From a virus: DNA of 64,000 nt. The position numbers were made by a program, and so were the translations under genes. Positions 1-39,379 of the stretch are shown piece by piece (positions within the stretch are counted from its first letter, which is position 1; the number at the start of each line of letters is the position of its first letter). The notes beneath the pieces are model-generated. The model had not been told where the DNA came from and did not search any database. It saw only the letters and a program-made list of their open reading frames with translations. The stretch is from positions 16,695-80,694 of the IMG/VR virus record IMGVR_UViG_3300036715_001783; one strand, 5' to 3'.

Positions 1-74
1 CAAGATGATAACTTGAAACAGCTGCATTAATCAGCATCAGCTTCCCTATTAATTTTAATTATTAGGAGATGAAT

Positions 75-392
75 ATGAGTGAACGACACCCATACACAGT
101 TATTATTGAAGGAGATGAGGGCGATGGTGATTATATCACTCACGAATTTGCTGCAACTGATGTTGATATGGCCTTATTGGTTAAATTTGTGGAATTAGCT
201 AGACCATTAAGAGGTAAGTTTCTTATTGGTGATTGTAGAATTAATGGGTCTAATCCAGAAGATATATATCCATCTTTGACGACCATTGAATTAGAACGAC
301 TTGCTGATATGTTCCCTTGTGGCGAACATGGAATACACCAAGTTCGATCTATTAAATTTGCACCCATTGTTAACTGGGTGGAAATGTTATAA
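75..392 (+). CDS. hypothetical protein, 105 aa
   Basis: I do not recognise this small acidic protein. Two in-frame ATGs lie at 69 and 75. AGGAG at 64-68 abuts the first and is 6 nt from the second, so ATG 75 is the better start. There are no membrane segments or signal peptide. It has an acidic N-terminal stretch (about residues 10-20) and a C-terminal part with scattered hydrophobic residues that looks globular. It is the first gene of a run of small + strand genes separated by tRNA genes. Confidence 0.7.
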   Translation: MSERHPYTVIIEGDEGDGDYITHEFAATDVDMALLVKFVELARPLRGKFLIGDCRINGSNPEDIYPSLTTIELERLADMFPCGEHGIHQVRSIKFAPIVNWVEML

Positions 393-481
393 CCAAATAT
401 AAACTGTTGCACTGCACCGAAGGGTTACTTCACATATAATGAAACCAAACACCCTTTACCGCAATTATATCTCAGTTTTAT

Positions 482-553
482 TCCAGCTAAATCACAAGGT
501 GTGATACTCGACTGTTAATCGATTTAAGCCAGGTTCGATTCCTGGAGTTGGAG
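482..553 (+). tRNA. tRNA-Asn (GTT)
   Basis: A cloverleaf can be drawn. Acceptor TCCAGCT (482-488) pairs with AGTTGGA (546-552) with one G-T wobble. A short D arm TCAC/GTGA has loop AAGGT. The anticodon loop CTGTTAA sits on a TCGA/TCGA stem whose outermost pair is mismatched, giving anticodon GTT. The T arm is CCAGG-TTCGATT-CCTGG. The discriminator is G, as usual for Asn. No CCA is encoded. The D loop is short, so efficiency is uncertain. Such phage tRNAs usually supplement the host tRNA pool. Confidence 0.8.
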
Positions 554-578
554 CATACATTAATTTTAGGAGACACAA

Positions 579-920
579 ATGAGTAAAGTGGATCATTATA
601 AAGGTACAATTGTAAAAATACCTGATTTAGTTGGTAAATCGTTTACAGAATCGATTGATTGGTTGTTAGCTAATGGTCATGAGATTGAAGACTTCGAACT
701 TGAAGATGAATACATGAGTGATCCTAATGTGGTTGTTGTGAATGGTGAGTTTTATTTTATAACAAGAACAGAGCTGGATGACGATGATGATATTTTGTAT
801 GCAAAGTCAATTCCAGGTGGATATGAATTTGATGTGAAGTATTATAACGGTGGTGTAAGTTTTGACGAAGCACTAGAGGATGCAGTAATAGCTGCAACCA
901 ACCGGGAGATGTCTGAATGA
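579..920 (+). CDS. acidic hypothetical protein, 113 aa
   Basis: Not recognised. The start follows TTAGGAGAC with good spacing. The protein is rich in Asp/Glu, with a run of five Asp near residue 67, and has no membrane segment. Its stop overlaps the next start (ATGA), so it is translationally coupled to the membrane-anchored protein downstream. DNA mimicry is conceivable for such an acidic small phage protein, but nothing specific supports it. Confidence 0.75.
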   Translation: MSKVDHYKGTIVKIPDLVGKSFTESIDWLLANGHEIEDFELEDEYMSDPNVVVVNGEFYFITRTELDDDDDILYAKSIPGGYEFDVKYYNGGVSFDEALEDAVIAATNREMSE

Positions 921-1264
921 ATCATTTAATAGCGCAAGCAATTGTAGTTGCAGTTGTAATATTTTTACTGTACAAAGGAGCAAAAAACGCTCCATTGCAA
1001 ATTACACCTAAACCACAAAAAACCGAATCAAAATTGTTACCAGTATTTTTTGCGTCTGGTGGTGGACAGACAACTCCTATTCATTTTACAAGTTTGGAAG
1101 AATTAAGAACTCATCCAATGTTTGATATTTGGAACAGTGAGTATGTGCTTAAACAACCCGAAGACAGTGTTAGTGTTTTCATGGTAAAAGAGGGCGATGA
1201 AGTATCTGAAGGTACAGTGGTCGGTTGGTTAGTTGAAATATCAACTAAACGATATTTTTCATAA
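917..1264 (+). CDS. membrane-anchored small protein, 115 aa
   Basis: One hydrophobic segment (about residues 5-20) at the N-terminus is followed by a Lys/Gln/Pro-rich linker and a soluble domain of about 80 residues. This predicts a single-pass inner-membrane or signal-anchor protein. The start overlaps the previous stop by 4 nt (ATGA). The family is not recognised. Confidence 0.7.
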   Translation: MNHLIAQAIVVAVVIFLLYKGAKNAPLQITPKPQKTESKLLPVFFASGGGQTTPIHFTSLEELRTHPMFDIWNSEYVLKQPEDSVSVFMVKEGDEVSEGTVVGWLVEISTKRYFS

Positions 1265-1273
1265 TATAACGAT

Positions 1274-1326
1274 CATTGGTGCAGCACATCTGTTAAACCA
1301 AGCTGGTTTGAGTCCAGAGGCCAATG
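1274..1326 (+). other. tRNA-like remnant (53 nt)
   Basis: CATTGGT at 1274-1280 can pair over 7 bp with GCCAATG at 1320-1326 (one wobble), like an acceptor stem. Just before the 3' strand is a T-arm-like hairpin CTGG-TTTGAGT-CCAG. The space between is only about 20 nt and holds CTGTTAA, the same loop as the tRNA-Asn anticodon loop, but without a proper stem or D arm. It looks like a tRNA reduced by deletion. A mimic or chance pairing is possible. Confidence 0.35.
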
Positions 1327-1359
1327 TTAGTTAATTTTTCAATTTTTAGGAGATATTAT

Positions 1360-1593
1360 ATGTGGTTTTTAGTTTGGATTTTAGTAACAACAGTTGGTGG
1401 GTTTTACTTTGGGCTTGATGTTGCTCCACCAGGGTCTGGTATGGAATGGGTTGGGGCAATTGTAGGCTTTGTGGTTGGGTTGTTGTTGTGGGTAATGTTT
1501 AAAGCTGCTTCTGGCGAATCACTTGGAGATGCATTTGGTAGCATCGGTGAATCATTTGGTGGTGATGGTTTTGGTGATGGTGGCGGTGATTAG
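1360..1593 (+). CDS. membrane protein with Gly-rich tail, 77 aa
   Basis: The start at 1360 follows TTTTTAGGAGATATTAT; a longer ORF reading from 1324 lacks a binding site. Two hydrophobic stretches (about residues 2-20 and 30-47) suggest a two-pass membrane protein, followed by a Gly/Asp/Phe-rich tail with repeated G-E-S and F-G-D-G motifs. Not recognised. A small inner-membrane role is likely; holin function cannot be claimed. Confidence 0.7.
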   Translation: MWFLVWILVTTVGGFYFGLDVAPPGSGMEWVGAIVGFVVGLLLWVMFKAASGESLGDAFGSIGESFGGDGFGDGGGD

Positions 1594-1646
1594 TTCAACA
1601 CATTACTTTTATAATTAGGAGATGCAAATGCATAAGTAAAAAATCG

Positions 1647-2081
1647 ATGATACTTCTAGCCTTGGTTAGTGTTGTGACAGTATTAAGTGGGTGTAAACCA
1701 GACCAACGATTTGACCATAGTACTTCAACCGCTGGTGCTCGAACATATGTGCAGTTTATCACAACAGTATTGGGGTGTTCCATTTACAAAGTGGTTGTTG
1801 AAGGTCCTACGTCAGATTTGTTTATCACTGTGTGCGACGACTCAACAAAAGCCTCTGCAGTTTCTTATATGAGTGGCAAGACTCCAGTGCATGTGGTATC
1901 AGGAAATACCCCATCTCCAACATCCACCGTGGTTCCCACCACGGTGGATACTTCATTGGATTTTAGCACAGAAGAAAAGAAAGTATTAGACCAAGCAGAC
2001 CAAATCCGTCACAAGTTTGAAATATTAGATAGGTTGTCCACAGAAGACAAGGCAACTTTAGGATTTGCAGTAAAAAAATAG
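1647..2081 (+). CDS. lipoprotein, start region frameshifted
   Basis: The protein begins with a hydrophobic segment ending in VLSGC, a lipobox, so it should be lipid-modified at the Cys and anchored in the envelope. The best ribosome site (TTAGGAGAT, 1616-1624) serves ATG 1628, which reads only Met-His-Lys and then TAA. Removing one base near 1637 would join that start to this frame and add the basic n-region a lipoprotein signal needs. The gene therefore seems to carry a one-base insertion, or starts weakly at ATG 1647. The mature part is Ser/Thr/Val-rich and unrecognised; lysis spanin or superinfection roles are only guesses. Confidence 0.6.
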   Translation: MILLALVSVVTVLSGCKPDQRFDHSTSTAGARTYVQFITTVLGCSIYKVVVEGPTSDLFITVCDDSTKASAVSYMSGKTPVHVVSGNTPSPTSTVVPTTVDTSLDFSTEEKKVLDQADQIRHKFEILDRLSTEDKATLGFAVKK

Positions 2082-2088
2082 CAACAAC

Positions 2089-2162
2089 GTCCATGTAGCT
2101 CAACAGGATAGAGCAAGACTCTTCTAAAGTCTAGGTTGGTGGATCGTGCCCACTCGTGGATG
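2089..2162 (+). tRNA. tRNA-Arg (TCT), 3' end replaced
   Basis: Acceptor GTCCATG (2089-2095) pairs with CGTGGAT (2155-2161). The D arm is GCTC/GAGC. The anticodon stem AGACT/AGTCT carries loop CTTCTAA, giving anticodon TCT (Arg). The T stem GGTGG/CCACT encloses the loop ATCGTGC, which departs from the usual TTCRANN. Downstream, at 3072-3091, lies a second 3' end with a canonical T loop. Joining 2089-2142 to 3072-3091 gives a perfect tRNA, so this gene was split by the endonuclease element, which supplied a substitute 3' end. Confidence 0.85.
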
Positions 2163-3071
2163 CTAAGGTATGTGTAAAAGTTGTTTGATCTCAGGTAGTT
2201 TTTGTTGTGATTGATATTCCCGATGAGTAACTCGAACAACTTTCCAACCTCTACCAGTCAAATAATCATCTCTAATATCGTCCAATTGTTTTCGTTTTTT
2301 GTGGTGTGAACCATCTAATTCTATTATTAATTTTAATTTTGGAAATACAAAATCTGCCCATCCATTCTTTTTTGTATCTGGATTAAAAAATCTAACTTCC
2401 ATAAGATAACCAGATAAACTATTAGTATAATTGTGGCTAATTAACCACTGCTCAAAAGAGTGTTCCATATAAGATTGTTGATGTGGTCCTCTGATGTGTT
2501 TTCTATTTGAAACCAACCAAATAGACATCAATCTGGAGTTTCGTATTTTCATACACTCCATAGAACACAAAATGCGGTGTTTGTTTTCAGCTATAAAGCC
2601 GCCCCCACATTCAGCACATATTAGAGAATGTTCGATTTTGGATTTAATTGGCCTAATTTTTTGCTTTAGTGTGGCAGATCTTTTTGTTTTTGATTCACTG
2701 GTGTGTATTCGGGTTGTATTATTTGTAATGGTGGCACATGACCTGGAGCAGAAATTGTTGCCAGATACACTAATGTTACACTGCCTTACTGTTATGTATT
2801 TTCCACAGTTGTGACATTGTATAGTTATTGGGGGCAATTTAATTGTAATTGGTAAGTTAGCCGCTGTTAATGCATCGTTCCAAGATCCAAATCTTTGTCT
2901 AATTACAATGGGGGATATGCCTAACTGAGAGGCAGTTAAATTACAAGTTGGAACTTTGTTCGTTGTGTTGTAATAATCAACTAAACATTGTATAATAGCT
3001 TCATTGGTAAATTTTACCATACATAATCCTTCGAGTGACTGTGTATATTTATAACTATCAGCAGGTCTTGG
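2143..3071 (-). mobile_element. homing-endonuclease element inserted in tRNA-Arg
   Basis: This 929-bp segment separates the 5' part of tRNA-Arg (to 2142) from its displaced original 3' end (from 3072). At its left end it carries a near-copy of the tRNA 3' end (CCACTCGTGGATG is shared), so the tRNA remains foldable. Its only gene is the minus-strand endonuclease. The arrangement is like integrative elements that rebuild the tRNA they enter, but there is no integrase; spread by the endonuclease and recombination is inferred. Confidence 0.7.
2163..3020 (-). CDS. homing endonuclease, Vsr-like (EDxHD type)
   Basis: This 285-aa protein on the minus strand has an N-terminal region resembling helix-turn-helix recognition modules, two Cys-rich zinc-ribbon-like motifs (CHNC..CSRSC and CAEC..CSMEC), and a C-terminal nuclease domain with IIELDGSHH, a downstream Asp-Arg and GWKVVRV. 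That pattern matches the Vsr/DUF559-like PD-(D/E)XK homing endonucleases. The gene's orientation opposes the surrounding operon and it sits inside a tRNA gene. Its start is preceded by AAGGAT on the complementary strand. It likely cuts tRNA-Arg alleles lacking the insert. Confidence 0.85.
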   Translation of the reverse strand: MVKFTNEAIIQCLVDYYNTTNKVPTCNLTASQLGISPIVIRQRFGSWNDALTAANLPITIKLPPITIQCHNCGKYITVRQCNISVSGNNFCSRSCATITNNTTRIHTSESKTKRSATLKQKIRPIKSKIEHSLICAECGGGFIAENKHRILCSMECMKIRNSRLMSIWLVSNRKHIRGPHQQSYMEHSFEQWLISHNYTNSLSGYLMEVRFFNPDTKKNGWADFVFPKLKLIIELDGSHHKKRKQLDDIRDDYLTGRGWKVVRVTHREYQSQQKLPEIKQLLHIP

Positions 3072-3091
3072 TTCGATTCCACTCGTGGATG
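3072..3091 (+). other. displaced original 3' end of tRNA-Arg
   Basis: TTCGATTCCACTCGTGGATG reads as T loop, 3' T stem, 3' acceptor strand and discriminator of a tRNA. It repeats the last 13 nt of tRNA-Arg at 2150-2162 exactly and has the canonical T loop that the upstream copy lacks. It marks the right edge of the inserted endonuclease element. Confidence 0.75.
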
Positions 3092-3130
3092 CATAGTTTT
3101 ATTCCCCAGTTATTTCAATAGGTCATTTTT

Positions 3131-3874
3131 ATGAATCGTCCAGCATTATATGTTCAAGCAGCTCCTTACAATAACAATTTAGCATTTGACTTTTGTTACT
3201 CAGCAAAGTTAGGAGCACAGGAAGCTGGAATTGAAGTATCTCATTTTGCCAACATTGTTGATGTTCCTCCTTCTCCATATAATATCATTGTGGGTTCTGT
3301 TGAAGTATGTACACAATGGTTGGCTCAATCTAGTTTTACTGTTCCCCCTGTAATAGATCTATTATTATTTAAAGATTTCCTTGGAAGACAAGTTGAAGTC
3401 TTGCCTATTTCCCAAGTCAACATTCCCGCCTTTATTAAACCTGCTTATCAACACAAAGCATTCACGGGCTTCATTGCTGATAGCAACTTAGCATTAGCAG
3501 TATGGAGTGAGGGATTTCAAGGTGACGTAATTTCACAACAAATCATCGATATTAAAAGCGAATATCGCATGTATATCAATTGCCAAAAGATTATTGGAAT
3601 GAAACACTATAGTGGGGATTGTCTTTTGTTTCCCAATAGCCAGTTCATTACGTCTTGTGTTGAAAAATCATATGAATTGTTGGATAATCATTCGTATACT
3701 CTTGATTTTGGAGTATTAGAAGATGGGACAACTGTCCTTATTGAACCAAATGATGGGTGGGCTGTAGGAAATTATGGTTTGGACCCACTTGACTATTATT
3801 ATTTTGTTCGTAATAGATGGTTACAATTAACAGGTGTACGAACACGAATGGAGCATAATTTACATGGCAGATAA
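3131..3874 (+). CDS. ATP-grasp domain protein, 247 aa
   Basis: The C-terminal half resembles phage ATP-grasp proteins of the DUF4343 type: a Lys in 'AFIKPAYQHKAFTG', 'EYRMYIN', and a metal/ATP-binding end 'TLDFGVLEDGTTVLIEPNDGWAVGNYG'. These enzymes ligate a carboxylate to an amine using ATP; the substrate here is unknown. The full-length frame starts at ATG 3131. The binding site is weak (AATAGGTC). It is the first gene after the tRNA-Arg element, and its neighbours downstream are small phage proteins. Confidence 0.7.
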   Translation: MNRPALYVQAAPYNNNLAFDFCYSAKLGAQEAGIEVSHFANIVDVPPSPYNIIVGSVEVCTQWLAQSSFTVPPVIDLLLFKDFLGRQVEVLPISQVNIPAFIKPAYQHKAFTGFIADSNLALAVWSEGFQGDVISQQIIDIKSEYRMYINCQKIIGMKHYSGDCLLFPNSQFITSCVEKSYELLDNHSYTLDFGVLEDGTTVLIEPNDGWAVGNYGLDPLDYYYFVRNRWLQLTGVRTRMEHNLHGR

Positions 3875-3910
3875 CATTTATCCCAGAAAACCAGAATAAG
3901 GAAACATACA

Positions 3911-4297
3911 ATGGAACTTAACGTATTACACGACCAAGAGATTTTAGTAATTGATCGACCTACTATTACAGGGCGAATATTTCCTCTACAAGTGTGTCAA
4001 GATATCGTGGACAAGTTTGAGGGGTGCTTTGGTCAACTTGGCATGTCGGATGACGGTAGGGTCAAAGTTGAATCTATTTCACACAAAGTAATTAACTTAC
4101 GGATTGTCGACAATCAAATAATTGGTGATGTAAAAATTCTGAACACACCATTGGGACAAATTCTTCAAGAATTACATCCTGATCAGTATAATTTTAGAAT
4201 AGCTGGTTTTTGTCATTATAAAAATGGCACATCAGAAGTTGCAGATTATCAGTTAATATCTATTAATGCGGTGAGTGTGTATGAAGTTTTGTGTTAA
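3911..4297 (+). CDS. S80 prohead-protease-like small protein
   Basis: Parts resemble T4 gp21-type (S80) prohead proteases: an N-terminal 'TITGRIFP', a middle 'ESISHKVINLRIVDNQIIGDV' followed by 'ILNTPLGQIL', and 'VADYQLISINAV' near the end. At 128 aa it is shorter than the roughly 200-aa proteases. The position normally holding the catalytic Ser in a GVSSRG-type motif reads FRIAGFC, so it is probably not an active serine protease. It may be a degenerate paralogue or a separate phage family of the same fold. This is an inference from motif similarity only. Confidence 0.45.
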   Translation: MELNVLHDQEILVIDRPTITGRIFPLQVCQDIVDKFEGCFGQLGMSDDGRVKVESISHKVINLRIVDNQIIGDVKILNTPLGQILQELHPDQYNFRIAGFCHYKNGTSEVADYQLISINAVSVYEVLC

Positions 4298-4466
4298 CGA
4301 AGTGGAATATGACCTAGGTTGGGGGTCAAGAGTATTAGACACCAAAGAATTTGATACTCTACAAGAAGCAAATGATTATATCGCAGAATTTAACTCACAA
4401 AACACCTGTGATCGTGTACCTGATTGGTATATGGTGGCAGTATTAGCCGGAGACTTATATGGATAA
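4281..4466 (+). CDS. hypothetical protein, 61 aa
   Basis: A small acidic soluble protein, not recognised. GTG 4275 and ATG 4281 are both in frame. It overlaps the previous gene's end and its own end overlaps the next start (ATG 4459), so the three genes are translationally coupled. Confidence 0.6.
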   Translation: MKFCVNEVEYDLGWGSRVLDTKEFDTLQEANDYIAEFNSQNTCDRVPDWYMVAVLAGDLYG

Positions 4467-4830
4467 AAATCCAGTTACCCCATTACAAATGTTATTCATT
4501 AGGGCGTGTAAATCTAATAACCCACAAAAACGATTACAGCGATTGTATCATGCTTTTTATGGGTGTTCTATAGATATCCCACAAGCTGAACTGAATATGC
4601 ACATTAGTAATAATTTAATGGACATTTGTGAACGGTATGAATTAACCAAACTCAGGGATGTGATGGCAGTAATGAACCCATCTCATTATATATCTCGGGG
4701 ATATGCGCCTGATACTCCATATTGGGAGATGGTAAGTATTACCATGTCCAATGTTATTAGATTTACAGAAGTTAAACAATTTCCTGGAATGCGATTACCT
4801 CGAAAATTCAGGACCCCCACAAGCTCATAG
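4459..4830 (+). CDS. hypothetical protein, 123 aa
   Basis: Not recognised. It is a soluble, basic protein with an N-terminal helical region (about residues 8-35) and no membrane segments. It overlaps the preceding gene by 8 nt and is followed after 9 nt by the Pth2 gene, with ATAGGATGAAC giving the latter's ribosome site. Confidence 0.6.
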   Translation: MDKNPVTPLQMLFIRACKSNNPQKRLQRLYHAFYGCSIDIPQAELNMHISNNLMDICERYELTKLRDVMAVMNPSHYISRGYAPDTPYWEMVSITMSNVIRFTEVKQFPGMRLPRKFRTPTSS

Positions 4831-4839
4831 GATGAACAA

Positions 4840-5277
4840 ATGTCAATACCAAAACAAGTAATAGTTATGAGAACTGATTTAAGAAATCAGGAAGGACATA
4901 AAATTAGAACTGGAAAATTAATTGCCCAAGGAGCGCATGCGTCCATGAAGGCAATTTTAGATGTTGGAACTGTTGTTCGCACGCATCCACAAGAAGATAA
5001 TCAAATGTTAATAATTGATATTACACCAGCACATTATCCTGAACGGTATGGGTGGCTAACAGACAAATTCACAAAAGTGTGTGTTAGTGTTAAGTCTGAA
5101 GAAGAATTATTAGCAATACATCAAGCAGCAGTAGATGCTGGTATTAAATGCACGTCTTTAATATTGGACGCTGGGTTAACAGAATTTGGTGGAGTTGCAA
5201 CATATACTTGTTGTGCAATAGGACCAGATTTCCCAGAAAATATCGATCCCATTACATCCCATTTGAAGTTATTTTGA
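4840..5277 (+). CDS. pth2: peptidyl-tRNA hydrolase, Pth2 family
   Basis: At 145 aa this covers the archaeal/eukaryotic-type Pth2 fold: 'GKLIAQGAHASMKA' near residues 25-39, a central 'FTKVCVSVKSEEELL', 'LILDAGLTEFGG', and the C-terminal 'TCCAIGPD' and 'ITSHLKLF'. Pth2 hydrolyses the ester of peptidyl-tRNA released from stalled ribosomes and so recycles tRNA. Its presence fits the tRNA genes and RNA ligase nearby as a translation/RNA maintenance set. The conserved end of the family coincides with the TGA stop, which shows that TGA terminates here. Confidence 0.88.
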   Translation: MSIPKQVIVMRTDLRNQEGHKIRTGKLIAQGAHASMKAILDVGTVVRTHPQEDNQMLIIDITPAHYPERYGWLTDKFTKVCVSVKSEEELLAIHQAAVDAGIKCTSLILDAGLTEFGGVATYTCCAIGPDFPENIDPITSHLKLF

Positions 5278-5430
5278 TATGGTGTAATTCCAGTTCCAAT
5301 ATGGGCTATTTAGTCTAACCATTATAGTAGATCGGTGTATGCCCAACGCATCTATTGCGTCTCTAACAGATTCAAACAGTACCCCATCTATATTAACTTG
5401 TTTTCTTAGGTGGGAGTGGCTTTCTGACAT
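5269..5430 (-). pseudogene. NUMOD1-like endonuclease remnant
   Basis: A 53-codon minus-strand ORF contains 'VNIDGVLFESVRDAIDALG' followed by an Ile/His-Arg-Ser-Thr-Ile stretch and an aromatic W-N-W-N-Y end. This is the pattern of the NUMOD1 DNA-recognition module found at the C-termini of GIY-YIG and HNH homing endonucleases. No nuclease domain precedes it; only its leading Met gives a start. It is most likely the tail of a deleted endonuclease. It overlaps the 3' end of pth2 by 9 bp. Confidence 0.6.
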
Positions 5431-5469
5431 TTGGGGTTTTTGTGTATTACGTATTTATGAAAGTTAGAG

Positions 5470-5497
5470 TTGACATAATATAGAAATGCTGTATAAT
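5470..5497 (+). promoter_or_regulatory. sigma70-type promoter
   Basis: TTGACA at 5470-5475 and TATAAT at 5492-5497 with a 16-nt spacer, 24 nt before the start of the P-loop/NADAR pair. Confidence 0.75.
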
Positions 5498-5520
5498 ATA
5501 ATTTTTAACAGGAGTAAAAT

Positions 5521-5760
5521 ATGAGTACAATTACTATCAATGTGTGTGGGACCTCCGGCACTGGAAAGACAACAATAGCCTATCTACTTGCAGACTTTTT
5601 AAGCAACACTGGATTTGCGACAGAACTTAATGTCACTGAAGAGTTTGAATTAGAAACTTTCGAAGAGCATTTTGTAGACCGTCTGGAAGCACTAGAAGAA
5701 AAACAATTAAAAATTGTTGTTAATGAAGTACAATTAGCAAGGGAATCTATTCATGAATAA
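5521..5760 (+). CDS. small P-loop NTPase-like protein, 79 aa
   Basis: It begins with a beta strand and a Walker A motif GTSGTGKTT (about residues 10-18), as in small kinases. The protein ends at residue 79, after a Glu-rich helix, so it is only a third to half the length of a nucleotide kinase and lacks an obvious Walker B or lid. It may bind a nucleotide or regulate its partner. Its end overlaps the NADAR gene start by 8 nt, so the two are coupled. Confidence 0.65.
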   Translation: MSTITINVCGTSGTGKTTIAYLLADFLSNTGFATELNVTEEFELETFEEHFVDRLEALEEKQLKIVVNEVQLARESIHE

Positions 5761-6235
5761 TGATCTGTATACTTTCTTTTGGTCAGGAATGTTTTCACAG
5801 TGGTATGCGTCTCCATTTAAAGTAGATGGAATTCAATACAATTGTGCAGAACAATTCATGATGCACAGTAAAGCCCTGATGTTTGAGGACTATGAGACTG
5901 CTGAATTAATTATGAATACCCCTAACCCAAAAATTCAAAAGCAATTAGGTAGGCAAGTAAAGAATTTTAATGCTGATAGTTGGAATGCAGTGGCAAAAAC
6001 TGTGGTGTATATTGCTAATATTGCAAAATTCACACATAGTCCGACCCTGTTAGAAGCATTATTGGCAACAGGAGATACTTTATTGGTTGAAGCATCTCCA
6101 TATGATACCATTTGGGGCATTGGGATGGGTGAAGTAGAAGCAAGAAAAAGCACCAAAGAACAGTGGAGAGGAACTAATTGGTTGGGAGAAGTTCTTACTG
6201 CTGTTAGAGACGATATTCGTTCTGATACAGTGTAA
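5753..6235 (+). CDS. NADAR (YbiA-like) domain protein
   Basis: The full 160-aa length fits a NADAR domain: 'FWSGMFSQWYASPF' near the start, 'YNCAEQFMMHSKALMF' (residues 25-40), 'LLEALLATGDTLLVEASPYDTIWGIG' and 'WRGTNWLGEVL' at the end. NADAR proteins act on ADP-ribose-linked compounds; some remove ADP-ribose from guanine in DNA, opposing DarT-type toxins, while YbiA hydrolyses riboflavin intermediates. A role against NAD- or ADP-ribose-based host defence is inferred, not shown. It is coupled to the small P-loop gene. Confidence 0.85.
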   Translation: MNNDLYTFFWSGMFSQWYASPFKVDGIQYNCAEQFMMHSKALMFEDYETAELIMNTPNPKIQKQLGRQVKNFNADSWNAVAKTVVYIANIAKFTHSPTLLEALLATGDTLLVEASPYDTIWGIGMGEVEARKSTKEQWRGTNWLGEVLTAVRDDIRSDTV

Positions 6236-9704: not shown

Positions 9705-10904
9705 ATGGCTGAATTTGAAGTAAAAATACAAAGAATTTATATTACTGAACACCCCAATGCAGATAGCTTACATATTGGACATATTGGCTCCCCTGATGGT
9801 TGGCAGGTTGTTGTTCGTAAGGGAGCATTTGCAGATCAATCTTTATGTGCATACATTGGAGAGAATGCAATTGTTCCTGATGAGATTTTACAAAAGTACA
9901 ATTATTGGAACGAAGACCAAAATAAAGGTATGTTGGCTGGAAGTAAAGGTAACCGGGTCAAGATGATCAAACTCAGAGGAGAGCCCAGTATGGGCATATG
10001 TATTCCTCTGATTGAAGAATGTAGTTGGGACGAAGAGGGAGGCACTCAATTATACGCACACACCCTTGAAGGAGAATATGTAATTGAAGGAGAGGTTGTT
10101 ACAGAATTGTTGGGTGTATACAAACACGAGCCACCAATCCCAGTTGCGATGGCAGGTGAAGTCTACAACGGTGGTACTTCTATTGGTGTGAGTTACGATA
10201 TTGAGAACTCCAAAAACTATCCAAATGTGTTTACTGAAGGTGAAGAAGTACAAGCAACTGAAAAATTGCATGGCTCGTTTTGTCAGATTGTGGTACTACC
10301 ACCAACAGACGAATTTTACAATGAAAATCATGGAGTAGGATTAGCAACCTCCGGAAAAATGGCATACATAGCTGTCTCCAGCAAAGGACTAGGGTCAAAA
10401 GGCTTGTTTCTTAAGCAGAACGAGAAAAATAACAACAATGTGTATCTCCGAGTAGCAAGACCATTGTACAGTACTCTCACAAGTGCTACGGAACAATTGT
10501 CAGATCCACTTGTACCAATCACTGTGTGTGGAGAAGTATTTGGGCATGGAGTGCAAGACTTAACATATGGGTTTTCTCAGGGCAATGTTGGGTTCAGAGT
10601 GTTTGATGTCTATGTGGGATGTCGTGGAATGGGATATTGGTTAAACGACGAAGAATTGGACGAGTGGTGTGCATTCACCTGTATTCCTCGAGTACCACTC
10701 TTATACAGAGGGCCATTTAATCTTGAGAAAATCAATGAGTTGTCCCAGAATACCCATTCTACATTTGATAAGAAACAAATACTTGAAGGGCTGGTGGTTA
10801 AATCAACGAAAGAGCGATTAGTTCATAATTTAGGTAGAGCGTGTTTGAAATACATTAATATTGCTTATTATTTACGTAAGGGCAATGCCACAGAGTTTAA
10901 TTAA
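9705..10904 (+). CDS. RNA ligase, DRB0094 family
   Basis: The 399-aa protein has an N-terminal OB-like domain ('HPNADSLHIGHI') and a nucleotidyltransferase domain with the ligase motifs in order: I 'TEKLHGS' (Lys near 187 would take AMP), III 'VCGEVFGHG', IV 'LEGLVVKST' and V 'CLKYIN'. This arrangement is that of the Deinococcus DRB0094-type ligase, which seals 3'-OH/5'-phosphate nicks in RNA. All catalytic motifs are present, so it should be active. Phage RNA ligases often repair tRNAs cut by host defence nucleases. It follows the capsid-like gene by 10 nt with AAGGAG. Confidence 0.88.
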   Translation: MAEFEVKIQRIYITEHPNADSLHIGHIGSPDGWQVVVRKGAFADQSLCAYIGENAIVPDEILQKYNYWNEDQNKGMLAGSKGNRVKMIKLRGEPSMGICIPLIEECSWDEEGGTQLYAHTLEGEYVIEGEVVTELLGVYKHEPPIPVAMAGEVYNGGTSIGVSYDIENSKNYPNVFTEGEEVQATEKLHGSFCQIVVLPPTDEFYNENHGVGLATSGKMAYIAVSSKGLGSKGLFLKQNEKNNNNVYLRVARPLYSTLTSATEQLSDPLVPITVCGEVFGHGVQDLTYGFSQGNVGFRVFDVYVGCRGMGYWLNDEELDEWCAFTCIPRVPLLYRGPFNLEKINELSQNTHSTFDKKQILEGLVVKSTKERLVHNLGRACLKYINIAYYLRKGNATEFN

Positions 10905-11430: not shown

Positions 11431-12345
11431 ATGGGAACAAAATTATCGTTAGAAACTTTTGTTAATAAGTCCACAAAAGTTCATGGTGACACGTATGATT
11501 ATTCTTTGTTTGATTATAAAAATTGGGACACTAAATCTATAATAATATGTAAGATTCATGGAAATTTTTTACAACAACCAAGACTACACATTGAAAGAAA
11601 AAGTGGTTGTCCCATATGTGGTAAACGCAAGCAAGGGATAACCAAGGCAATTAAAGAATCTGAGTTTATAGTTAAAGCAACCCAACTTCACGGTGATAAA
11701 TATGATTATTCTCAACTGGGCTATGTTAATATATCATCTCCTGTTAATATTATATGTCCCATTCATGGGATATTTCGGATTGAGTATGCATATGCTCATA
11801 CCACAAATAAAACCGGCTGTGCTAAATGTGCACAGGATAGTGGTAGAAATACTACAGAAGACTTTATAACTAAATCAAAATCGTTATATGGAGATGCATT
11901 TTCATATGAGTTATCCCAATATGTTACTGTTCATACTCAGTTAACTATAAAGTGTGCTCAACATGGATATCAAGTAATAACGCCAGCAGACCATTATAGA
12001 ATTGGGTGCTGGATATGTAAACGAAATAGATTACAAGATATTTGGTTAGATAGCTTAAATCTACCAAATACAAGAAATCACCGACAAGTTAGATTAAAAA
12101 TCAACAATAGACTACATATCGTAGATGGTTTCGACTCTACAACTAATACAGTTTATTTGTTTCACGGAGATTATTGGCACGGAAATCCAATATTATATAA
12201 ACCAACTGACGTCAACAAACGAATAGAAAAATCATTTGGAGAATTATATGTTCAAACGTTAGAATATGAAGATAGAATAAGGCACGCAGGATATAAACTT
12301 TTAGTTATGTGGGAATATGAATGGCTACAACAGAACATTGTGTAA
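11431..12345 (+). CDS. modular homing endonuclease, 304 aa
   Basis: Three tandem modules of about 60 residues share the pattern F..K....HG..YDYS..Y......I.C..HG.F......H...GC..C, the treble-clef-like DUF723-type DNA-binding repeat. They are followed by a Vsr-like nuclease domain with 'YLFHGDYWHGNP' and the end 'GYKLLVMWEYEW'. The same C-terminal motif occurs in the genes at 14009 and 17147. It lies between a truncated and a complete HNH gene and its 3' end overlaps the latter's start by 25 nt. It is probably a free-standing homing enzyme. Confidence 0.8.
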   Translation: MGTKLSLETFVNKSTKVHGDTYDYSLFDYKNWDTKSIIICKIHGNFLQQPRLHIERKSGCPICGKRKQGITKAIKESEFIVKATQLHGDKYDYSQLGYVNISSPVNIICPIHGIFRIEYAYAHTTNKTGCAKCAQDSGRNTTEDFITKSKSLYGDAFSYELSQYVTVHTQLTIKCAQHGYQVITPADHYRIGCWICKRNRLQDIWLDSLNLPNTRNHRQVRLKINNRLHIVDGFDSTTNTVYLFHGDYWHGNPILYKPTDVNKRIEKSFGELYVQTLEYEDRIRHAGYKLLVMWEYEWLQQNIV

Positions 12346-12626
12346 TATGTGGAAGATTATTGGGAACTATAAATATCAGCAAACATCATTTAATTCCTAA
12401 AACATTTGATAAGAGTTCTCCAACTATAGTAATCCATAATATATGCCATTCCAAAATTCATGCATCTATGAGTGAACGAGAGCTTCAACATTATTATCAT
12501 ACTGTGGATAGGTTATTAGAGCACGCTGATATGATGAAGTTTGTGGAATGGGTGAAGAACAAGCCAACATCTTATTATGACACAAATAACGAAACAAAAT
12601 CCAGATATAGAAAGCGGAGAAAGTAA
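12321..12626 (+). CDS. HNH endonuclease-like protein, 101 aa
   Basis: It carries Cys-x2-Cys, 'KHHLIPKTF' and 'NICHSKIHA', the zinc-binding and catalytic parts of a compact HNH fold, plus a basic helical tail. It overlaps the endonuclease upstream (start within its last codons) and the next gene (TAATG). A 5'-truncated relative lies at 11244-11414. Function as a nickase, homing enzyme or packaging-associated nuclease cannot be separated. Confidence 0.7.
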   Translation: MATTEHCVICGRLLGTINISKHHLIPKTFDKSSPTIVIHNICHSKIHASMSERELQHYYHTVDRLLEHADMMKFVEWVKNKPTSYYDTNNETKSRYRKRRK

Positions 12627-12799
12627 TGAGTGCAGAACAAGATAAAATTATCAAGAAATTATCGAAAGATGTTCAGGATTTAAAAGTGATGGTATTAAGA
12701 CAAAATCGTTGTATAACAAACATGGATAAAGAAATCAGAAGGTTAAAACATCAATCAGTTGGTACAAAAAATGATATTGCAGCTATGAGGCGTACTTGA
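12626..12799 (+). CDS. coiled-coil small protein, 57 aa
   Basis: ATG overlaps the previous stop (TAATG). The protein is Lys/Arg/Asp-rich with heptad-like hydrophobic spacing from about residue 8 to 42 and no other motif, so a short coiled coil is expected. Not recognised. Confidence 0.6.
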   Translation: MSAEQDKIIKKLSKDVQDLKVMVLRQNRCITNMDKEIRRLKHQSVGTKNDIAAMRRT

Positions 12800-12856
12800 T
12801 AGTTGGGACAATATATGTAATACTATAAATACCTCTATTGATATGGAGATGGTTAT

Positions 12857-13168
12857 ATGTTACTAATTGAATTGTTTGAAGAGGATAGGAGTTTGATGGG
12901 GACACCAGCAAAACCACTTACTCCCGAAAAAACCAAAATGTGTTTTCCTAAAAAAGAGGTATGGAGACATGTGTCCGCACCTGGTAAAAAATCTGGTTGG
13001 AAAGAAGTTCATATAAAAACGGGCAAAACAAATAATACAGAAAGTGCTAAAGAAAATCACTCTGTCAAAAAATTAAACCCAAATATACTAGAGACACCAC
13101 TCCAAAAGGAAAAAGTCAACAGTATCGAAAGTATACAAGAGGAACAAACTAATGAGCGGACCAGCTAA
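12857..13168 (+). CDS. basic hypothetical protein, 103 aa
   Basis: ATG follows TATGGAGATGGTTAT. The protein is Lys-, Thr- and Glu-rich, has low hydrophobicity and is probably mostly unstructured after residue 55. Not recognised. It overlaps the following gene by 17 nt in another frame. Confidence 0.55.
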   Translation: MLLIELFEEDRSLMGTPAKPLTPEKTKMCFPKKEVWRHVSAPGKKSGWKEVHIKTGKTNNTESAKENHSVKKLNPNILETPLQKEKVNSIESIQEEQTNERTS

Positions 13169-14008: not shown

Positions 14009-15157
14009 ATGATTGATAAACAAGCTAATTGGTTAGCAAAGGCTAAAAAAATCCACGGAGACCTATATGACTATTCTCTTGTTGTATATGTGTCTCCAGA
14101 TGTTCCAGTAATTATAAACTGCCCAATTCATGGACAGTTTCACAAAAGTCCAAATGGACATACCAACAAAAAGGCTGGGTGTCCTAAATGTGGATATCTA
14201 ATTAGAGCAGTCAACAATCGGGAAAAATATGGGGTAGATAATCCAGCACAGTTGGCTATTATACAACAAAAGAAAAAACAAACTGTGTTAGCTCGGTATG
14301 GTGTGGAATATGCATCACAAAATGAAAATATACAAAACAAAACAAAACAAACTAATTTGGCAAAATATGGACACCAGAATATTGCCCACGGTACAAAGAA
14401 AGAGAAGGTGACACATACCAATTTAGAAAAATATGGCGGGCACCCAAGAAAAAATAAAGATGTACAAGAAAAACAAAAAAGAACAAATCTGGAACGGTAT
14501 GGGTACGAAAATGCTGCCCAATCAAATATTATCCAAAATAAAATAAAACAAACTAATTTAGAGCGATACGGAGTAGAGTATGCTTCGCAGAACAACATTA
14601 TCAAAGAAAAAATAAAACAAACTAATTTAGAGCGATATGGAACACAATCTTACAGCCAACAACACTTGGTGGATATTCTCCCATTGCTTGAAGATTATGG
14701 TTGGTTATTTGAACAATATATTACCCAAAATAAGACAGCTACCCAAATAGCAAACGAATTAGGGAATGTTTATTATGGAACTATAATTTCGTACTTAATG
14801 TACTATGAAATAGAAATCCAACAATATTATTGGAGTTCATACAAATGTCGACTGTGGATTGCACAACAAGACGGTGCAATAATTGAAGAGTGGAAAATAC
14901 CAAATACAAGATTCAGAGCGGATGGATATTGTGAGGCAACAAATACCATTTATGAATTTCATGGGGACTATTGGCACGGAAATCCATCAATTTACCAACC
15001 AGACGAAATAAATGAAGTAGTTGGAAAATCCATGGGTGAGCTGTATCTGAAAACATTGGACCGAGAAAGCCTAATAAAATCATTAGGTTACAATCTAGTG
15101 GTTGTGTGGGAACATGATTTTGATACGTCCATAGAATTTATGGTGCAACAACAATAA
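14009..15157 (+). CDS. modular homing endonuclease with short repeats
   Basis: The 382-aa protein has one DUF723-type module at the N-terminus (K..HG..YDYSLV.Y through GC..C). About seven tandem repeats of roughly 20-29 residues around 'KQTNLERYGVEYASQ' follow (about residues 68-212), then a linker. The C-terminal Vsr-like nuclease domain has 'YEFHGDYWHGNP' and 'GYNLVVVWEHDF'. The repeats occur in phage endonucleases and probably read DNA sequence. It has its own promoter and interrupts a run of ordinary genes, so it is a likely mobile intruder. Confidence 0.82.
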   Translation: MIDKQANWLAKAKKIHGDLYDYSLVVYVSPDVPVIINCPIHGQFHKSPNGHTNKKAGCPKCGYLIRAVNNREKYGVDNPAQLAIIQQKKKQTVLARYGVEYASQNENIQNKTKQTNLAKYGHQNIAHGTKKEKVTHTNLEKYGGHPRKNKDVQEKQKRTNLERYGYENAAQSNIIQNKIKQTNLERYGVEYASQNNIIKEKIKQTNLERYGTQSYSQQHLVDILPLLEDYGWLFEQYITQNKTATQIANELGNVYYGTIISYLMYYEIEIQQYYWSSYKCRLWIAQQDGAIIEEWKIPNTRFRADGYCEATNTIYEFHGDYWHGNPSIYQPDEINEVVGKSMGELYLKTLDRESLIKSLGYNLVVVWEHDFDTSIEFMVQQQ

Positions 15158-15197: not shown

Positions 15198-15223
15198 TTC
15201 TCTTCATTTGAGGAGAAATTATA

Positions 15224-15541
15224 TTGACTACCCACCCAATCCCCCCATCACTATATTGGGAAATTCTTAAATGGTGTTCCTCATTATGTTATATAATTGG
15301 TACAATATTATTATTGTCTCCGGTTATAGCATCTACAGCAGTAACACCATGGATAGTTTTCATACTTGGAAACACTATCCAATTTGCTAATTTTGTACAT
15401 CAACGGAACGTTCCATTCATATGTTTAAGTGTGTTTTTCTTTATTTGGGATTCTCTTATAATCACACAGCGCTTGACATCCATAGAAACATTGGGTATAA
15501 TTAGCGAATTAATCAAACATTTAGACAATTTTATCATATAA
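15224..15541 (+). CDS. membrane protein, 105 aa, TTG start
   Basis: Three hydrophobic segments (about residues 15-35, 37-55, 63-82) predict a small multi-pass membrane protein. The first usable codon after AGGAG (about 15211) is TTG 15224; there is no ATG in place. It is followed 10 nt later by the DpdA-like gene. Not recognised. Confidence 0.65.
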   Translation: MTTHPIPPSLYWEILKWCSSLCYIIGTILLLSPVIASTAVTPWIVFILGNTIQFANFVHQRNVPFICLSVFFFIWDSLIITQRLTSIETLGIISELIKHLDNFII

Positions 15542-17146: not shown

Positions 17147-18244
17147 ATGAGAAAAAGATGGTCTAATTTATTGGTTGATGAGTGGTTAATATCCCACAAG
17201 TTACCTATAACTAGATTATCATTATTTGAAAATGTCAGTACTCCATTACAATATAAATGTGAAGTTTGTGATAATATATGGAGTACTGCTTGGGTTAATA
17301 TATATTCCAGGGGCACTAGATGTCCCAAGTGTGCAATTGTACGAGTGGCACACTTACACACCAATTCGTTAGATTGGTGGAATGCTAAATTGGCATTGGT
17401 ACATATACTAAATATGGAGCCTATTATACCTGGAGATAATTCAGCTATAACATGGAAATGTGAAAATTGTGAATATACTTGGATAGCAACCAAAAGCTCC
17501 ATAATATCTCCAAATTTTGGAGGATGTAAGTGTTGTACTGGAAAATTGGTTAATAACCAAATTATAGATACCAAATTATCTGATAGAAATATTACTAGGT
17601 TGGATGATTTTATAGCAACAAATACTCCAATTAGTTGGAGTTGTAATGTGTGTGACCACAAGTGGAAGACATCTCCAACCAAAATTTTAAACGAAGGTAC
17701 AGGTTGCCCAAAATGTTCTAATAGGGTTAGGCATACAAATGAAGACATTGACCACAGGTGTGGGGCTATTGGAATACGACGAGTGGGAAATTATGTTAAT
17801 ACCCATACTAAAATAGAGTGGTGTTGCAAAAAGTGTAACAATACATGGCATGCAAAACCATCTAATATATTAAACCAACATACTGGATGTCCCCATTGTC
17901 GAACTCCATCATATTCAAAGAAAGCTATCCGGTGGTTAAATCAAACGATGCAGACTGATTGTTGTTTTATTCAACATGCTGAGAATATTGGGGAATACTT
18001 AGTACCAGATATTTTAGTAAAAGTAGATGGATACTGCAAAGAAACGAACACTATATACGAATTTCATGGGGATATATTTCATGGAAATCCAAATAAATTT
18101 ACAGCAGATGAAATGTGTAGTCCATTTCATAAATTAACAGCTGGTGAACTGTACAATAAAACTAAACACAAGGAGAGTAAAATAATGAAAGCGGGATATA
18201 AATTAGTAGTTATGTGGGAGAGTGAATATGACTCAAAAAAATAA
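17147..18244 (+). CDS. homing endonuclease with zinc-ribbon repeats
   Basis: This 365-aa protein has about four zinc-ribbon modules of some 60 residues, each with C.VC...W......I...G.GCP.C (DUF4379/treble-clef type; for example 'YKCEVCDNIWSTAW'). A Vsr-like nuclease domain with 'YEFHGDIFHGNP' and 'GYKLVVMWESEY' follows. It begins 2 nt after the Dcd stop and its end overlaps the next gene's start, so it slotted neatly between two metabolic genes. It is a likely free-standing homing endonuclease. Confidence 0.8.
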   Translation: MRKRWSNLLVDEWLISHKLPITRLSLFENVSTPLQYKCEVCDNIWSTAWVNIYSRGTRCPKCAIVRVAHLHTNSLDWWNAKLALVHILNMEPIIPGDNSAITWKCENCEYTWIATKSSIISPNFGGCKCCTGKLVNNQIIDTKLSDRNITRLDDFIATNTPISWSCNVCDHKWKTSPTKILNEGTGCPKCSNRVRHTNEDIDHRCGAIGIRRVGNYVNTHTKIEWCCKKCNNTWHAKPSNILNQHTGCPHCRTPSYSKKAIRWLNQTMQTDCCFIQHAENIGEYLVPDILVKVDGYCKETNTIYEFHGDIFHGNPNKFTADEMCSPFHKLTAGELYNKTKHKESKIMKAGYKLVVMWESEYDSKK

Positions 18245-21468: not shown

Positions 21469-22311
21469 ATGAAATTTATTATATATAAACACACCAATAC
21501 AATAACAAAAAAATCATATATTGGTTATACCAGTAGTACTTTAGAAAAGCGTTTAAATAGACATTTTCAAGACGCAAAAAGAGGTTCTAATCAATATTTT
21601 CACCGTGCTATCAGAAAATATGGACAAGATTGTTGGATAAGTGAAATACTTGCTGAATGTGAAATAATTCAGCAAGCTCATAAATTAGAATGTTCGTTGA
21701 TATTAGAACACAACACTTTTGGAATAAATGGATATAACATGACTATTGGTGGGGAAGGTACAACTGGTAGAATAGTATCTGAGGAAAGTAGACAAAGGTT
21801 AAGAGCCCAGCATCTTAATTTTAGACATACAACCAAAAGTAAACAAACCATGGTTGAAAAATTTACTATATTAAGAGGACGAAAAGTAAATCAATATACC
21901 AAATCTGGACAATATATTGCTACATATGATTCATGCACACAAGCAGCTCAACAAGTATTAAATAATAAAAACTTGAGTGGTAGCATACACCAATTATGTG
22001 CTGGAACTTTTTCTAATTGGAATCAGGAATTGGTTAAGGGATTTCAGTGGAAATTTGATAACCTAGACAATCGCACAGATGTATCTCCGATTGTCGGGTT
22101 AAAGGATACTCATATAAAAAATCTGGTCAAGCGCAATAGCCAACAGGCCAAAAAAGTACAACAATTATCAACAAACGATGAATTGATATCCAGTTATACA
22201 AGCGCAAAAGAGGCCAGCCTACTTACAGGGATATACATATCAGGCATACAACGATGTTGTATAGGAAGATTATTAACAGCTGGTGGATATAAATGGGCCT
22301 ATATCAATTAA
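21469..22311 (+). CDS. GIY-YIG homing endonuclease
   Basis: The 280-aa protein starts with a GIY-YIG domain: 'IIYKHTNTITKKSYIGYT' carries the KH-Y / YIG pair, followed by 'EKRLNRHF' with the catalytic Arg and a Glu near residue 65. A NUMOD3-like stretch ('SEESRQRLRAQH') and two NUMOD1-type modules ('VNQYTKSGQYIATYDS' and 'VQQLSTNDELISSYTS') read DNA. It sits between QueE and a Nudix gene with no host-gene motifs shared and carries no strong ribosome site. It is a free-standing homing endonuclease. Confidence 0.88.
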   Translation: MKFIIYKHTNTITKKSYIGYTSSTLEKRLNRHFQDAKRGSNQYFHRAIRKYGQDCWISEILAECEIIQQAHKLECSLILEHNTFGINGYNMTIGGEGTTGRIVSEESRQRLRAQHLNFRHTTKSKQTMVEKFTILRGRKVNQYTKSGQYIATYDSCTQAAQQVLNNKNLSGSIHQLCAGTFSNWNQELVKGFQWKFDNLDNRTDVSPIVGLKDTHIKNLVKRNSQQAKKVQQLSTNDELISSYTSAKEASLLTGIYISGIQRCCIGRLLTAGGYKWAYIN

Positions 22312-28065: not shown

Positions 28066-30192
28066 ATGACAGAAGTTACAAGTCCAAAAACCCACTATTT
28101 ACGGACGGGGAACAGTATTAGAGTGGTAAGTGCTGCAAATATCAACATTTGTGATGGGTTACCTCCTGGTAATTATATTGTACAGTTTGACCAACAATCT
28201 GGTGAATATTTTTTGGAAACAGTTGATAACTTTACTATTCCAACAAAATTGTACGGTAATGTATTTGACCAAGCAGAGCGTATTATCTCTACGTTTATGG
28301 ATCGGCCTAATACAACTGGAGTATTGTTAACTGGTGAGAAAGGTAGTGGTAAAGCACTTCGTGTTGACCAATCTGTGTATACTCCAATGGGAGAACGTAA
28401 AATTGGTGAGTTGGTTGTAGGTGATATGATTTATGGTGCAGATGGTAAATTAACAACTGTATTGGGAGTATACCCACAAGGTGTGCGAGATATGTTTGAA
28501 GTTACATTTAACGATGGTAGCCAAGTTATTGCAGATGGTGAACATTTATGGGATGTAAAACAAACAACTCGTAGCCAAGTCGGATTTCCAAAACAATCCA
28601 CCAAAAATCGAATTAAATCAACTATCCCAAAAATTCTTACAACAGCACAAATTAAACAGGCACTAAACGCAGGGGTTAAACATGTGGTGCCTTTATGTGG
28701 CCCTGTAGAATTTCCAAAAAGTGATGTTGATGCTGATAGATATACAATTGGGTTGTTGATAGGGGATGGTTGTTTGTGTAATCCAACATTAACAATTAGC
28801 TCAAATGATCCAGCTATCGTAGAACACTTACAGATAGACAATATAATTAAATATACAAGTGGTGTTGATTATAGATTTGTTGACTGTAAACATTTAGTGG
28901 ACCAACTAACTTTGTTGGGGTTAAGAGGTACAAGAAGTAATACTAAGTTTATCCCCGAAAAATTAAAGTACGATTCGGTGGAAAACCGTTTTGCATTATT
29001 ACAAGGGCTAATGGACTCTGATGGAACAGTTAGTAAAAGAGGGGGCATTACATACACCACCGTTAGTAATATCTTAGCAAATGACATGGTGTGGTTGGCA
29101 AGATCTCTCGGATTCAGAAGTTCAATCCAACACACTCGTGCACCTTCATATACACACAATGGAATTAAAAAAATTGGACAATTAGCATATACAGTCCAAT
29201 TAACTGGAGAGCATACTGATAAGGTCTTTCGTTTAGAAAGAAAACAGGCAAGAGTTAAACCATGCTCATCAAATACTAAAACTATTGTGGATATTAAATC
29301 AGTTGCTCCCGATGAAGCTGTATGTATTTTGGTAGACAATGAATCTCATTTGTTTGTAACAAACGATTTTACAGTAACTCACAACACAATGCTCACAAAA
29401 GTCATCAGTACAACATTAGCTGCCAAAGGAATTTCAACAGTCGTTATTAACGAGTGTATGTATGGAGACTTATTCAACAAATTTATTCAGATGATTGATT
29501 CTGAATGTGTAGTGTTATTTGATGAGTTCGAAAAAGTATATCCAACAGATGTCCAAGAAAAAATGCTGACATTGTTGGATGGGGTATTTCCATCAAAGAA
29601 ATTATTCTTATTCACTAGCAATTCATCTAGCCGGATTAATTCACACCTGATGAACCGTCCTGGTCGTATTTTTTATGTGTTGAAATATGCTGGCCTAGAC
29701 AGTGAGTATATTACTCAATACTGTAATGATGTGCTTGTCGATAAGTCTTATATTGATGAAATTTGTCGATTGTCACTATTGTTCTCTGCATTTAACTTTG
29801 ATATGCTTAAAGCATTAGTTGAAGATATGAACAGATATAACGAATCTCCAACTCAAGTTATGAAGCTGTTGAATGCCATTCCAGAAGATACTGGAAACAA
29901 TAGTTTTGATGTTGAATTGTCGTACAAAGGTGAATGGTTTAACAAAGGTCAGTTGGATGATCATGGCGCTTGGAGTGGCAATCCACTGGATCCACGAGGG
30001 GTTGGTATTGAATACCGCAATCCAAACCCAAACGAAGATAATGATTCCAATTATTGGTTAACAGTTCTCCTGTTTAGTGAGAACCTCACCAGAGTGGACA
30101 TCGAAACTGGTACGTTTGAATATGCAAAAGATGATTTTGTACTTCGACTGAAACGAAGCAAAACATTGTCGTACCAATACTCTGCTTTCTAA
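28066..30192 (+). CDS. AAA+ ATPase split by an intein
   Basis: The 708-codon ORF encodes an AAA+ ATPase (364 aa after splicing). The Walker A motif reads GEKGSGK, then the intein (codons 97-440), then TMLTK, so the mature P-loop is GSGKT. Walker B 'VVLFDEFEKV', sensor 1 'LFLFTSNSSSR' and the arginine finger region 'LMNRPGRIFYVLKY' follow. Such stand-alone AAA+ proteins in phages may act in DNA metabolism or as chaperones; the exact role is unknown. The enzyme can work only once the intein is removed. AAAGGAG precedes the start and a terminator follows. Confidence 0.88.
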   Translation: MTEVTSPKTHYLRTGNSIRVVSAANINICDGLPPGNYIVQFDQQSGEYFLETVDNFTIPTKLYGNVFDQAERIISTFMDRPNTTGVLLTGEKGSGKALRVDQSVYTPMGERKIGELVVGDMIYGADGKLTTVLGVYPQGVRDMFEVTFNDGSQVIADGEHLWDVKQTTRSQVGFPKQSTKNRIKSTIPKILTTAQIKQALNAGVKHVVPLCGPVEFPKSDVDADRYTIGLLIGDGCLCNPTLTISSNDPAIVEHLQIDNIIKYTSGVDYRFVDCKHLVDQLTLLGLRGTRSNTKFIPEKLKYDSVENRFALLQGLMDSDGTVSKRGGITYTTVSNILANDMVWLARSLGFRSSIQHTRAPSYTHNGIKKIGQLAYTVQLTGEHTDKVFRLERKQARVKPCSSNTKTIVDIKSVAPDEAVCILVDNESHLFVTNDFTVTHNTMLTKVISTTLAAKGISTVVINECMYGDLFNKFIQMIDSECVVLFDEFEKVYPTDVQEKMLTLLDGVFPSKKLFLFTSNSSSRINSHLMNRPGRIFYVLKYAGLDSEYITQYCNDVLVDKSYIDEICRLSLLFSAFNFDMLKALVEDMNRYNESPTQVMKLLNAIPEDTGNNSFDVELSYKGEWFNKGQLDDHGAWSGNPLDPRGVGIEYRNPNPNEDNDSNYWLTVLLFSENLTRVDIETGTFEYAKDDFVLRLKRSKTLSYQYSAF
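28354..29385 (+). mobile_element. class 3 intein with LAGLIDADG endonuclease
   Basis: The 344-aa insert begins with Ala (not Cys/Ser) and ends 'TVTHN' before Thr +1. Block B reads 'ADGEHLW', with Trp two residues after His; block F carries Cys in 'EAVCILVDN'; Thr precedes the final His-Asn. This Trp-Cys-Thr triplet defines class 3 inteins, in which the block F Cys replaces residue 1 as nucleophile. 'IGLLIGDGCL' and 'LLQGLMDSDGTV' are the two LAGLIDADG motifs of a homing endonuclease. The insertion point in the Walker A loop is a classic protected homing site. Confidence 0.9.
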
Positions 30193-37840: not shown

Positions 37841-37865
37841 TCCCATTGATAAAGTTAGAGGACAA

Positions 37866-38318: not shown

Positions 38319-38333
38319 TTGTTACCTATGTTG

Positions 38334-38362: not shown

Positions 38363-38367
38363 ACAGC

Positions 38368-39355: not shown

Positions 39356-39379
39356 TGTTATAACAATCGGAGGGTAATA

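Follow-up and report, generated by a model that had tools for sequence, protein, structure and literature searches.

An apparently selfish gene for a Vsr-like (EDxHD) endonuclease has probably inserted by homing, in antisense orientation, at the T-arm and 3′ end of a tRNA-Arg(TCT) gene in a bacterial virus, leaving an intact tRNA upstream of it. We document below the anatomy of this locus, the fold of the nuclease, the recurrence of the arrangement at a different tRNA in a second phage, and an empty counterpart of that second site. The DNA analysed, referred to here as the window, is a stretch of 64,000 nucleotides corresponding to bases 16695-80694 of an 80,694-bp IMG/VR virus record.

Organization of the tRNA-Arg locus

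The order along the locus is tRNA-Arg(TCT), a head-on gene of 285 codons, a late-promoter-like element and a headless tRNA 3′ end (Table 1). The tRNA was the single call made there by ARAGORN and by Rfam (RF00005, 52.5 bits, E 1.9e-9), and all its stems are paired. It is the variant tRNA that the original prediction had expected to remain upstream. Joining 2089-2142 to 3072 onward generated a 75-nt tRNA-Arg(TCT) in which every stem was formed and the T loop was the canonical TTCGATT, as had been predicted, with the correction that the fragment ends at 3092 and not at 3091. The length of the intervening segment, 929 bp (2143-3071), also agreed with that prediction. A second complete tRNA enclosing 3072-3092 would have told against a split gene, and none was found, even when ARAGORN was relaxed to 80% of its threshold.

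Table 1. Features of the tRNA-Arg locus, in coordinates of the window.
Feature	Position	Strand	Basis
Complete tRNA-Arg(TCT), no encoded CCA, T loop ATCGTGC	2089..2163	+	ARAGORN, Rfam RF00005, structure
tRNA 3′ portion adjoining the endonuclease gene (T loop, T-stem 3′ strand, acceptor 3′ strand)	2143..2163	+	Sequence
14-nt direct repeat CCACTCGTGGATGC, left copy (T-stem 3′ strand to nt 74)	2150..2163	+	Sequence search
Predicted homing endonuclease gene, 285 aa	2163..3020	-	ORF; PF04480 DUF559 (3e-11), weak HNH_repeat PF18780
Vsr-like/EDxHD nuclease domain, residues 183-285	2166..2474	-	Structure match, invariant residues
Two Cys4 zinc-finger-like modules, residues ~69-95 and ~135-156	2553..2816	-	Invariant cysteines, weak zf-FCS match
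TATAAATA, T4-type late-promoter-like element of the endonuclease gene	3046..3053	-	Sequence search
Orphan tRNA 3′ fragment, canonical T loop TTCGATT	3072..3092	+	Sequence, joined-tRNA fold
14-nt direct repeat CCACTCGTGGATGC, right copy	3079..3092	+	Sequence search

The 21 nt adjoining the endonuclease gene run parallel to the orphan fragment, and the two share the direct repeat CCACTCGTGGATGC. This repeat has two copies only in the whole 64 kb, while none of 100 shuffles contained it twice, and it is beyond chance expectation. The pair was found by direct sequence search and a script; a general repeat listing missed this 14-mer.

The perfect joined tRNA could also have been the product of an intron, with splicing joining 2089-2142 to 3072 onward, and tRNA genes can hold group I introns with endonuclease genes. 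However, only ∼71 bp of the insert lie outside the open reading frame, which is too little for a group I or group II core, the Rfam matches in positions 1-6000 are tRNAs only, with no intron at E values up to 1, the endonuclease gene is antisense, and the upstream tRNA is already complete. The intron was rejected on the Rfam result and the short non-coding sequence, and we regard it as extremely improbable.

The endonuclease gene and its product

The endonuclease gene is convergent with the tRNA-Arg gene, and its stop codon (TAG) takes in the final tRNA base. As had been predicted, the insert contains no integrase; the open reading frame that fills it encodes the Vsr-like endonuclease. The weak Pfam match to HNH_repeat is to a homing-endonuclease-associated repeat. 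TATAAATA, the late-promoter-like element, has its sole occurrence on the minus strand of the window at this gene.

A structure model of the 285-aa protein had a mean pLDDT of 68.6 and was good over the C-terminal 100 residues. The best match of the modelled nuclease domain was to the catalytic domain of I-Bth0305I (PDB 3R3P; Z 10.9 over 91 residues), the match to E. coli Vsr gave Z 9.1-9.4, and Foldseek assigned a probability of 1.00 to a Vsr-like catalytic fold. At the level of the predicted fold, the proposed Vsr-like identity was thus confirmed. An alignment of 13 diverse relatives showed E186, D223, H240 and D247 to be invariant, and we infer that these residues correspond one-to-one to the catalytic residues of the EDxHD motif. 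The resemblance to I-Bth0305I would then hold for the catalytic residue pattern as well as for the modelled fold of the domain. I-Bth0305I is intron-associated, unlike the window gene, which is free-standing at a tRNA gene and encodes zinc-finger-like modules.

Relatives of the endonuclease at tRNA genes

Relatives were collected by alignment searches of IMG/VR, and ∼100 loci were fetched. Most of the better-matching relatives lie within phage tRNA clusters. At 15 of the 16 loci examined in the closest group, the gene faces a tRNA in antisense and has its stop codon between -60 and +20 nt from the tRNA 3′ end; the window itself comes on top of this count. A random point in the same loci falls in this range 7.9% of the time, giving P ∼4e-16 for 15/16. 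The target tRNAs of this group are Gly(TCC), Lys(TTT), Thr(TGT) and Met(CAT), next to Arg(TCT) in the window, and a T4-type late-promoter-like TATTTAT precedes most of the related endonuclease genes on their 5′ side. No close relative was found in bacterial genomes, where matches were confined to the nuclease domain, or in named phages, which gave distant matches only, two of them within tRNA clusters.

A more distant sub-group is in sense orientation and runs into the 5′ end of a tRNA. Ten of these genes (L032, L036-L040, L076, L086, L091 and L098) extend 10 nt into the tRNA that follows, with tRNA nucleotides 8-10 serving as their stop codon (TGA, TAA or TAG).

A second duplicated 3′ end and its empty counterpart

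The closest match to the window enzyme, with 50% identity, is encoded at a locus of another phage (L021). There, the order is a complete tRNA-Gly(TCC), the endonuclease gene in antisense, a late-promoter-like element and, last, the orphan CCGACTACCCGCTC, which is an exact copy of tRNA positions 63-76. The duplicates are spaced by 934 bp, compared with 929 bp in the window. Among 527 distinct tRNAs from ∼100 loci, an exact 3′-end duplicate outside a called tRNA was present in the window and L021 only; in both, 14 nt extending from tRNA position 62/63 to the 3′ end flank the endonuclease gene. The stranded copy in L021 retains the CCA end (GCTCCA), while the copy adjoining the gene is without CCA. 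The other relatives abut a tRNA end with no recognisable fragment. Candidate decayed fragments in L002 (tRNA-Ala) and L022, in which TTCGA is correctly spaced from a matching 3′ end, were rejected as they did not rise above shuffles.

A sister phage of L021, L122, has a neighbour protein that is 89% identical. Its tRNA-Gly(TCC) is uninterrupted and ends in CCA, no endonuclease gene is present there, and both flanks align, although the tRNA-Gly sequences of the two phages have diverged. As judged from these alignments, L122 carries a syntenic, not near-identical, empty site for L021. In each phage the two copies share an identical 14 nt; their T loops differ in the window only, and the stranded CCA of L021 matches L122. 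For the window phage, IMG/VR searches with the neighbour protein, a tRNA anticodon/variable-region pattern and a T-arm/acceptor pattern found no relative with an uninterrupted tRNA-Arg, and the named phages searched gave generic tRNA matches only.

Two tandem tRNA-Arg genes could have produced the window arrangement with nothing being regenerated, had the endonuclease gene landed between them and the 5′ part of the second been lost. Similar neighbouring tRNAs do occur in such clusters, as illustrated by three tRNA-Asn genes in the same genome, and the two T loops of the window differ. However, truncation would have had to occur at about one and the same tRNA position in both phages, with elements of the same length, and L122 has a single tRNA-Gly(TCC) at the site, with tRNA-Ile next. 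We consider this history decidedly unlikely.

A further alternative is a target-site duplication, in which a staggered break and gap filling doubled the 14 bp that run from the 3′ strand of the T-stem to nt 74; in that case, the upstream tRNA would be wholly native, including its odd T loop, and the insert would have contained no tRNA sequence. Exact 14-nt copies at matching positions of two different tRNAs, one in each phage, are what such an event would leave. L021 fits it fully, as its upstream T loop is canonical and its downstream copy has CCA, and a duplication would explain how one family occupies Arg, Gly, Lys, Thr and Met tRNAs with no need to carry matching 3′ ends. In the window, however, the right copy directly follows a canonical T loop (GGTTCGATT), so that the similarity extends beyond 14 nt, which would be a coincidence under a duplication. 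The ends of the insert share no obvious terminal sequence, and we know of no 14-nt stagger for Vsr-like or other homing endonucleases. A target-site duplication therefore appears to us an unlikely, though not a negligible, explanation. Under homing and duplication alike, the gene inserted at the 3′ end of the tRNA and the tRNA upstream stayed intact.

A different and complex arrangement, a duplication of a tRNA 5′ region in L073 (1317-2350), was left out of the duplicate count. A 21-nt copy of the 5′ region precedes the whole tRNA by 944 bp, and a nuclease-like open reading frame of a different kind (1431-2099) separates the two; this is possibly a mirror image of the 3′-end duplication.

T loops of tRNAs next to endonuclease genes

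T loops beginning with A54 were found in 35 of the 527 distinct tRNAs from the relatives' loci, and the ATCGTGC loop is uncommon, not unique. This weakened the argument that the odd T loop proves the 3′ end to be foreign. The upstream tRNA of L021 has a canonical T loop, and it is the fragment that is the copy lacking one. Of the original claim that the insert brought its own 3′ end, the duplication of the 3′ end across the gene was upheld, while these two observations weaken the idea that the odd T loop arrived with the insert.

The A54/T58 exchange was present in 3 of 14 tRNAs abutting antisense endonuclease genes versus 18 of 513 others, a weak excess from a post hoc comparison (p = 0.015). 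Loss of the SegB-like motif at endonuclease-abutting tRNAs was not significant (p = 0.27). Within the genome itself, A54 occurs in 2 of 11 tRNAs, Arg and Ala, exactly those that abut antisense nuclease-like genes. Since the upstream loop of L021 is canonical, a change in the T loop is no general rule of immunity. In the window phage only, the altered loop may plausibly represent an escape from self-cutting.

The tRNA-Ala(TGC), with T loop ATCATAG, lies outside the window at 12134-12207 of the record. An antisense 268-aa open reading frame overlaps its 3′ end by 33 nt (record 12134-12981 for the pair) and belongs to another family (PHROG 23051), with a weak HNH endonuclease match.

Proposed mechanism

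From the arrangement of the locus we infer the position of cleavage, homing, resistance and a function for the upstream tRNA, as follows. The enzyme would cut intact tRNA genes near the T-arm, and repair of the break would copy in the endonuclease gene along with the tRNA 3′ end joined to it. This end would complete the upstream tRNA, so that the target is not lost, and the other copy of the 3′ end would be left stranded beyond the promoter of the endonuclease gene. The occupied locus would resist cutting because its site is divided and, in the window phage, also because the upstream loop reads ATCGTGC instead of TTCGATT.

SegB, another endonuclease from a tRNA cluster of phages, cleaves within tRNA genes and has the published motif RAWTSGAAC (PMC13096335). 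The reverse complement of this motif, GTTCSAWTY, is the T-arm sequence; the words T-arm and T-loop are absent from that paper. In the window, the stranded copy GTTCGATTC fits GTTCSAWTY and the upstream tRNA GATCGTGCC does not. I-TevI binds an operator that resembles its own homing site and overlaps its own late promoter (PMC2988022). By analogy, one may speculate that the orphan copy, just upstream of the late-promoter-like element, could serve as an operator of the I-TevI type.

The T-arm is the sequence most shared among tRNA genes. A bolder possibility, which we hold to be doubtful, is that a Vsr-like lineage of tRNA-rich phages recognises the T-arm and jumps from one kind of tRNA gene to another (Arg, Gly, Lys, Thr and Met). 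Each jump would duplicate 14 bp at the tRNA 3′ end and so preserve a functional tRNA, in the manner of a transposon with no transposase, and some odd T loops of phage tRNAs would be scars left by resistance to these enzymes.

Comparison with known systems

The nearest published precedent is that of the mORFs (mobile endonuclease ORFs) of fungal mitochondria, which form gene hybrids by bringing in a 3′ end that completes the upstream gene and leave the native 3′ end stranded ∼1 kb downstream, as in atp6, atp9, cox2 and nad3 of Glomus and atp6 of Allomyces (PMC3630166). The loci in the window and L021 resemble these in that an endonuclease gene lies in a gene, with a complete target upstream and a second 3′ end downstream. 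The mORFs, however, occupy protein genes of organelles and encode LAGLIDADG or GIY-YIG enzymes, whereas here an EDxHD-like gene lies antisense in a phage tRNA gene. By this analogy, the locus is best read as a tRNA version of the mitochondrial gene hybrids.

SegB of T4/T6, a free-standing GIY-YIG enzyme, is similar in its location in a phage tRNA cluster, its T-arm motif and a predicted late promoter. It belongs, however, to a different nuclease family and is encoded between tRNA genes, and no stranded tRNA end is described in the available parts of the two papers (PMC13096335, PMC2988022).

Integrases act on tRNA genes at their T loops and 3′ ends, with the same signature left behind (mycobacteriophage Ms6, PMC1762012; ICEs, PMC9897764). 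Like elements carried by integrases, the locus has a whole tRNA at one end and a 3′ fragment (3072-3092) at the other. Unlike them, it lacks a recombinase, measures 0.93 kb, lies inside a virus and has the nuclease gene as its only cargo. The original description as an integrative-element strategy thus fits the result, but no recombinase is implied and the precedent lies in the mitochondrial gene hybrids. The open literature searched, with incomplete coverage, gave no paper on a tRNA gene that is both split and restored by a gene for an endonuclease.

Other mobile and tRNA-related features

Further likely mobile endonuclease genes are present in the window at 21469-22311, 11431-12345, 14009-15157 and 17147-18244; they include a GIY-YIG/NUMOD1 gene directly behind a gene that we take to be QueE-like, for which there was no Pfam match, and genes for DUF723, DUF7487 and DUF4379 proteins. 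At 28066-30192, a probable intein that includes an endonuclease domain of the LAGLIDADG type splits an AAA ATPase gene. An array of ∼60-bp repeats (ATTAGTCATCGTGTAGATGATTTAGAAA...) extends over 37813-39360, with regular 60-bp steps at 38368-39328. A tRNA-like stretch between two open reading frames (1270-1328) has the T-arm-like CTGGTTTGAGTCCAG and ends in CCAATG; it seemingly has no D arm and was not called as a tRNA.

Outside the window, a probable CCA-adding enzyme with PolyA_pol head and RNA-binding domains is encoded before the tRNA cluster (record 9711-10826), and most of the tRNAs inspected lack an encoded CCA. ARAGORN also called a tRNA with anticodon TTA (record 15212-15286), which would read the stop codon UAA.

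Significance

The recurrence of this arrangement at a different tRNA, in another phage with a related gene, suggests that endonuclease genes have a repeated means of entering tRNA genes while sparing them. Gene-hybrid homing, described earlier in protein genes of mitochondria, would thereby extend to the tRNA genes of bacterial viruses, and a route into tRNA genes that is free of recombinases is suggested. The published SegB motif is open to being read as the tRNA T-arm. The analysis also provides an enzyme family with predicted, directly testable targets, and would help explain why nuclease genes, fragments of tRNAs and odd T loops are so numerous in phage tRNA clusters.
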